Below, piece after piece: positions 1,413 through 2,055 of a stretch of DNA of 55,773 bases. A program made the position numbers and the translations under genes. The stretch spans positions 1 through 55,773 of the forward strand of contig JAAYUG010000154.1 in the NCBI GenBank assembly GCA_012517825.1. Direction: 5' to 3'. Position 1 is the first letter of the stretch, and every line of letters begins with the position of its first letter. The stretch comes from Bacteroidales bacterium. Lineage in GTDB: Bacteria; Bacteroidota; Bacteroidia; Bacteroidales; JAAYUG01. The notes under the pieces are model-generated. The model was not told the DNA's origin and ran no database searches. It was given only the letters and a program-made list of their open reading frames with translations.

Positions 1413-1838
1413 TTATTGAATTTCAATAGTCCGGCCGGCTTTCTTTTTAGCTTCTTCCTTCTTCGGGATGGTGATGGTTAAGATACCGTCCTTATGGTTG
1501 GCTTTGATCTTGTCGGCATCCACGATATCGGGCAAGGTGAATGATCTGCGGAAAGAAGTGTAGGAGAATTCTTTCCTCAGATAATTCGACTCTTTGCTTT
1601 CCTTGGATACTTCTTTTTCAGAAGATATGGTAAGCAGCTTGTCGTCAACATCAATCTTAAAATCTTTCTTTTCAAGGCCTGGAGCTGCCACCTCAATCCG
1701 GAAAGCATCCTTGTCTTCGATAACGTTTACTGCCGGCATGCTCATCGATTCGCCAAGGTCCATTTCGGACAGCAAATCTCTGTTAAAGAATTCATCCATC
1801 CACGAAGGAAGTAATGAACGTCTTAACATCAGTGACAT
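1413..1838 (-). CDS. hsp20: Small heat-shock protein, Hsp20/alpha-crystallin family
   Basis: ATP-independent holdase chaperone of the cytoplasm. The 141-residue protein has a short N-terminal arm (MSLMLRRSLLPSWMDEFF). The alpha-crystallin domain spans about residues 35-130, from AVNVIEDKDAFRIEVAAPGL to DGILTITIPKKE. The C-terminal I-x-I motif (IEI, residues 138-140) docks between subunits in this family. A ribosome site (AAAGGAGGG, about 1846-1854) precedes ATG 1838. Upstream lies a consensus sigma-54 promoter with two distal dyads, so it is probably controlled by an enhancer-binding activator rather than only by a housekeeping promoter. Length and motifs are ordinary; the regulation is the unusual part. 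Confidence 0.96.
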   Translation of the reverse strand: MSLMLRRSLLPSWMDEFFNRDLLSEMDLGESMSMPAVNVIEDKDAFRIEVAAPGLEKKDFKIDVDDKLLTISSEKEVSKESKESNYLRKEFSYTSFRRSFTLPDIVDADKIKANHKDGILTITIPKKEEAKKKAGRTIEIQ

Positions 1839-1890
1839 AGCTCAACCCTCCTTTCTTTTTTTATTTTTTTTTCATTTTCACCCCCTTTAT

Positions 1891-1906
1891 AGCAAGTGTT
1901 GTGCCA
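1891..1906 (-). promoter_or_regulatory. Sigma-54 (-24/-12) promoter of hsp20
   Basis: On the minus strand the sequence reads TGGCACAACACTTGCT. It matches the sigma-54 consensus TGGCAC-R-N4-TTGC-W at every fixed position, with the GG and GC elements correctly spaced. Predicted transcription starts near 1880, about 41 nt before ATG 1838, leaving room for the ribosome site. Between this promoter and the distal dyads is an A/T-rich stretch (about 1921-1965) of the kind that is easily bent. Confidence 0.82.
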
Positions 1907-1974
1907 TGCAAGGTAAATGGTAATTAAAAAATTGATATACAATTATTTAATTATAAAGGCCCTTTTGTGCAAAA

Positions 1975-1987
1975 TGTCAATATGGCA
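1975..1987. promoter_or_regulatory. Putative upstream activator site 1 (TGTCA-N3-TGGCA dyad)
   Basis: TGTCA-ATA-TGGCA, preceded by AAAA. It is centred at 1981, about 100 bp upstream of the predicted hsp20 start, where NtrC-family activators usually bind. It is an imperfect dyad in itself and is matched by a second copy 32 bp further on. Confidence 0.6.
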
Positions 1988-2006
1988 CTTTATTGTCGAT
2001 CAAGTA

Positions 2007-2019
2007 TGCCAAACTGACA
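2007..2019. promoter_or_regulatory. Putative upstream activator site 2 (TGCCA-N3-TGACA dyad)
   Basis: TGCCA-AAC-TGACA followed by TTTT. Read on the other strand it matches site 1 at 14 of 17 positions including the A/T flank. Its centre (2013) is 32 bp, about three helical turns, from site 1, so both would face the same side of the DNA. It also lies just upstream of the divergent metallopeptidase promoter and could serve that gene instead. Confidence 0.6.
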
Positions 2020-2028
2020 TTTTAAAAC

Positions 2029-2055
2029 TTTGGAACCCCTTTTGTGTTATATTTG
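2029..2055 (+). promoter_or_regulatory. Bacteroidota-type promoter of the zinc metallopeptidase gene
   Basis: TTTG at 2029-2032 and TATATTTG at 2048-2055, which matches the TAnnTTTG -7 box. The 15-nt spacer is shorter than usual. Transcription would begin near 2062, downstream of the possible GTG start at 2044, which supports ATG 2080 as the true start. Confidence 0.55.

Follow-up and report, generated by a model that had tools for sequence, protein, structure and literature searches.

The DNA stretch analyzed here (the window, 55,773 nucleotides of a contig from a Bacteroidales bacterium) carries two divergent genes separated by an intergenic region of 241 bp (1839-2079). On the minus strand, the open reading frame at 1413-1838 encodes a small heat-shock protein of 141 amino acids (hsp20; PF00011, E = 8.6e-29). 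On the plus strand, the gene at 2080-2760 encodes a membrane zinc metallopeptidase (Zn_peptidase_2, PF04298, E = 4e-87). An earlier note on this DNA had proposed that hsp20 is transcribed from a sigma-54 promoter by an NtrC-type activator bound at two upstream dyads, and the sites it described are all in place. The -24/-12 box of hsp20, TGGCACAACACTTGCT, lies on the minus strand at 1891-1906 and matches the sigma-54 consensus exactly; the transcription start site (TSS) is predicted to be near 1880. The two enhancer-like dyads, which are assigned to no strand, are found at 1975-1987 (TGTCAATATGGCA, the one nearer the hsp20 box) and at 2007-2019 (TGCCAAACTGACA, with the inverse TGTCAGTTTGGCA). 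Their starts differ by 32 bp, as had been given, and their centers lie approximately 101 and 133 bp 5′ of the predicted TSS, in keeping with the reported distances of about 100 and 132 bp. The reported match at 14 of 17 positions is correct for 17-mers starting three bases outside the dyad.

A second feature of the region had been missed. A divergent sigma-54-like box of the peptidase gene, TGGAACCCCTTTTGT, is present on the plus strand at 2031-2045, with TTGT rather than TTGC as its -12 part. Measured start to start, 24 bp separate it from the dyad at 2007-2019 and 56 bp from the dyad at 1975-1987. Just 3′ of this box, TATATTTG at 2048-2055 of the plus strand matches the -7 element of Bacteroidota promoters; a TTTG at 2029-2032 lies only 15 bp 5′ of it, and the two therefore do not form a standard -33/-7 pair.

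Taken alone, the box was rejected as evidence for sigma-54 control, as its frequency in this genome is at chance level: the exact sequence TGGCACAACACTTGCT occurs at eight places in 3.3 Mb, compared to seven for the reversed control. Dyads are found upstream at only one of these eight places, which is the hsp20 box of the window. A relaxed dyad-pair pattern occurs at two places in the 3.3-Mb genome, 5′ of both of its hsp20 genes, and at none in the reversed control. In a second genome of the same genus (G001), dyad pairs are likewise restricted to the regions upstream of hsp20, again with no match in the reversed control. Thus, the dyad pair is not a product of chance. At the second hsp20 gene of the genome (C131; L306, 4621-4664), the dyad pair is accompanied by no more than a variant box, CGGAAT-N5-TTGA, retained as CGGAAC-N5-TTGA in G001.

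Comparison with G001 showed that the dyads and both boxes are retained in DNA that has otherwise diverged. Of the 26 dyad bases, 25 are unchanged: all 13 in the dyad at 1975-1987 and 12 of 13 in the dyad at 2007-2019, where the single change falls at a degenerate position. The hsp20 box keeps 13 of 15 bases, with the changes confined to the spacer, and the peptidase box at 2031-2045 is identical. Between the dyads, only 4 of 19 bases are retained, and in the interval separating the dyads from the hsp20 box 34 of 68. Lack of conservation in close relatives and absence of rpoN from the genome had been named in the earlier note as refuting its proposal; neither is observed.

The same layout recurs across the order. 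Among 73 Bacteroidales hsp20 upstream regions, 63 have dyads, 62 have the box, and 53 have both with the dyad upstream of the box, whereas shuffled sequences gave means of 1.6, 1.2, and 0.01, respectively (maximum for both, 1). Dyad and box were found together at none of approximately 295 further genes encoded in these loci, a count that leaves out 13 listed cases that are hsp20 genes missed by the filter. In most of the hsp20 loci that were scored negative for dyads, degenerate versions can still be recognized. Outside the order, 10 of 29 hsp20 genes have dyads, in each case followed downstream by a box. A Bacteroidota housekeeping promoter (-33 TTTG and -7 TANNTTTG at the usual spacing) was found in 0 of the 73 hsp20 upstream regions (shuffle mean, 1.75). 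The HrcA/CIRCE repeat GCACTC-N9-GAGTGC was not seen on reading 1839-2079, nor by pattern search upstream of five groES genes.

The spacing of these elements provided a further line of evidence. In hsp20 upstream regions across the order, the distances between dyads form groups at 31-33, 41-43, and 52-53 bp, and those from dyad to box at 24-25, 35-36, 46-47, 56-57, 66-68, 77-78, and 87-89 bp. Both sets follow a comb that repeats approximately every 10.5 bp, for which the Rayleigh values are only indicative, as the distance points are not fully independent. Periodicity of this kind is the signature of proteins that have to occupy the same side of the helix, and base composition cannot yield it. 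The layout and helical spacing are as in NtrC-type enhancers, and to this extent the mechanism first proposed stands; the part that may not hold is the kind of activator, since the likeliest candidate lacks a receiver and would not be an NtrC-type response regulator.

A reading in which an ordinary repressor or a sigma-70-type activator uses the dyads as its operators, and the box is a chance match, is very improbable. The chance-level frequency of the exact box in this genome speaks for it. Against it, the dyad lies upstream of the box, helically phased, in 53 of 73 loci, and no housekeeping promoter is enriched.

In the window itself, the geometry points to the peptidase gene as well. The distances of 24 and 56 bp from the peptidase box both fall on the comb, while those from the hsp20 box (81 and 113 bp) miss it by about 3 bp. 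The dyads are probably a shared, bidirectional enhancer for hsp20 and the peptidase gene. Peptidase loci elsewhere fit with such a role. Among 77 of them, including loci from Bacteroides, Parabacteroides, Chitinophaga, and Flavobacterium, 27 have dyads, 27 have boxes, and 7 have both, against shuffle values of 2.1, 1.1, and 0.03, respectively. Peptidase relatives across Bacteroidota show the same dyads with a TGGCAA-N5-TTG box, and in one genome (G002) a relaxed dyad pair lies 5′ of the peptidase gene, apart from the hsp20 gene of that genome. It is unlikely, however, that the dyads serve mainly the peptidase gene and drive the hsp20 promoter only weakly. Besides the better phasing, such a division of labor could draw on the better conservation in G001 of the DNA on the peptidase side (59 of 64 bases). 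Against this, the hsp20 box is the better match to the consensus and is itself conserved, hsp20 genes across the order show the layout without a peptidase neighbor, and activators bound at 80-130 bp may act by looping, in which case phase becomes less important. The circuit drawn for hsp20 in the earlier note is supported but incomplete, as the dyads probably serve the divergent peptidase gene too and clpB has the same sites.

Collectively, these observations lead us to propose that sigma-54 control is exerted from the intergenic DNA at 1839-2079. There, a sigma-54 activator, or bacterial enhancer-binding protein (bEBP), would bind both helically phased TGNCA-N3-TGNCA dyads, presumably become activated by protein damage, and use ATP to bring RNA polymerase-sigma-54 into its open state at the box of hsp20 (1891-1906, minus strand) and probably also at that of the peptidase gene (2031-2045, plus strand). 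Leaving aside which activator is involved, we hold a sigma-54 and enhancer mechanism at this locus to be highly likely, because the genome contains rpoN (PF04552, E = 1.7e-53) and four bEBPs, the sites are conserved, dyad and box co-occur across the order, their distances follow the helical comb, and no housekeeping promoter is found. Three observations count against it: at the second hsp20 gene the box exists only as the CGG variant, the peptidase gene has an imperfect box (TTGT), and the hsp20 distances in the window are off the comb.

All four bEBP genes lie outside the contig of the window, on which there is no match to PF00158; the absence of an activator gene from the window had been stated correctly. 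First, L003 (G000:C27) has a receiver and a GAFTSA loop but is without a helix-turn-helix (HTH). Second, L004 combines PF00158 with HTH_8, has a GSFTGA loop, and gives no Response_reg match. Third, L005 is a response regulator with an HTH. Fourth, L006 (967-2409, G000:C121) is RtcR-like, scoring 275 bits against NCBIfam RtcR, below the cut-off of 650. The L003 type (also L174-L185) is a very common Bacteroidales response regulator, with a receiver and a sigma-54 AAA+ domain, a GAFTSA or GSFTSA loop, and no DNA-binding domain; it might form a split activator with a receiver-less, HTH-bearing bEBP.

The gene for the L004-type protein (L290, 6546-7892, G000:C137) lies just 5′ of lptE, a TPR gene, secG, groES, and groEL, and a bEBP gene of this type is also near groEL in several other genomes. 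Its recognition helix, SERTLYRK, is nearly invariant among the sampled genomes. In two genomes that are each 99% complete, G004 and G021, the lptE-linked bEBP is the only one, and the dyad and box are present at hsp20 in the former and at clpB in the latter. With fair rather than strong confidence, we regard this receiver-less AAA+/Fis-HTH protein encoded beside lptE-secG-groESL as the likeliest activator. No dyad pair was found within the lptE-bEBP loci.

A different bEBP, of the L005 type or the RtcR-like L006, or several together, could bind the dyads instead, which we consider possible rather than probable. G057 (98% complete) has an L005-type protein, appears to be without the lptE-linked bEBP, and yet keeps degenerate dyads; G055 (92% complete) likewise appears to be without the lptE-linked bEBP, yet has dyads. 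These two genomes were chosen for having few bEBPs, and gaps in their assemblies may account for an apparent absence. The idea of using G057 as a natural experiment of activator loss was dropped, as its degenerate dyads remain. A different activator is hard to reconcile with G004 and G021, which have the lptE-linked type only; in addition, the surroundings of the L005 gene showed no TGNCA dyad pair, and the L003 type is without an HTH.

The regulon would extend beyond the two genes of the window. In 198 genomes, strict dyad pairs were found mostly upstream of hsp20 genes, and in addition twice upstream of clpB and once upstream of grpE. In a dedicated set of clpB upstream regions, 22 of 30 have dyads (shuffle mean 0.7, maximum 3) and 11 of 30 have boxes, and the dyads show the same spacings and comb as at hsp20. 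The assignment of grpE as a target is tentative and comes from one genome. In the present genome, no ClpB was found above the cut-off and grpE was not located. We propose an order-wide regulon whose members would include, as a minimum, hsp20, clpB, and the gene for the membrane zinc metallopeptidase.

Other matches to the patterns were considered individually. The groESL operon was not supported as a target: the dyad there is part of the stem of a terminator that follows secG, and G001 does not retain the box. Tandem TGCCAAT repeats (mainly in G106, also in G161 and G032) match the pair pattern and were set aside, as they look like unrelated dispersed repeats. Intergenic dispersed repeats of the form TGCCAATATGCCAAT occur at L226 and other places in G106, at L212 (G161), and at L208 (G021); they account for 24 pair matches in G106 alone and look unrelated to the enhancer. 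A dyad pair is also present 5′ of a gene that seems to encode an oligopeptidase-type lipoprotein (L213, G179:C34; L214, G076:C31), which at L213 is divergent from an hsp20 gene. This gene is possibly another target.

Several known systems resemble the proposed one in part. PspF, which turns on stress genes via sigma-54 in the phage-shock response, is a bEBP without a receiver, as is the candidate L004. The two differ in that L004 scores 280 bits, far below the TIGR02974 cut-off of 443.55 for PspF, carries additional sequence separating its AAA+ lid from the HTH, and is encoded with lptE-secG-groESL. QseF/GlrR of E. coli, which acts at the upstream activating sequence (UAS) TGTN12ACA at glmY and rpoE in an envelope-stress circuit, likewise uses several palindromic UASs with TGT/ACA ends 5′ of sigma-54 promoters (PMC6075780). 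However, QseF is a response regulator while the favored activator here has no receiver, the half sites here are TGNCA with a 3-bp center, and the predicted targets comprise cytoplasmic chaperones together with a membrane protease. The E. coli ibpB gene is also a small heat-shock gene assigned to sigma-54, but its promoter gave only background ChIP signal and is considered misannotated by the authors of that study (PMC4591121); it is therefore a poor precedent. In Chlamydia, the hrcA-grpE-dnaK chaperone operon has a sigma-54 promoter; there, it is arranged in tandem with a second promoter, which uses sigma-66 and is controlled by HrcA, and rpoN decreases upon heat shock (PMC8762339).

An in silico study from 2025 reports sigma-54 promoters enriched at Bacteroidota chaperone COGs, including COG0071 (IbpA/Hsp20), GrpE, GroES, and COG0542 (PMC12316311). 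Sigma-54 control of Bacteroidota chaperones, Hsp20 among them, had thus already been predicted there; the main text of that study is without enhancer sites, a helical comb, an activator, or the peptidase target. The enhancer code, the peptidase target, and the activator were not found in the literature searched, with most subscription papers outside the reach of that search.

The mechanism is of a known kind, and it is its order-wide use for the protein-damage response that is of interest. To our knowledge, Bacteroidota have no sigma-32 homologue, and their chaperone induction is poorly defined. Judged from the genomes compared, our results suggest that part of the Bacteroidales protein-damage response is switched on by sigma-54 and not by the usual heat-shock sigma factor. 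More tentatively, and with slightly less than even confidence, we propose that a single receiver-less bEBP, whose gene accompanies groESL, may act as master activator for a set of proteostasis genes under sigma-54 (hsp20, clpB, the membrane zinc metallopeptidase gene, and perhaps grpE) in Bacteroidales and probably in Bacteroidota more broadly, in the role that sigma-32 has in Proteobacteria. Because sigma-54 promoters depend on activation driven by ATP and show hardly any activity otherwise, their use for chaperones would imply a tight on/off switch with a damage sensor. With Bacteroides and Flavobacterium offering tractable strains, the enhancer code, the list of targets, and the candidate activator together make chaperone induction in Bacteroidota directly testable.
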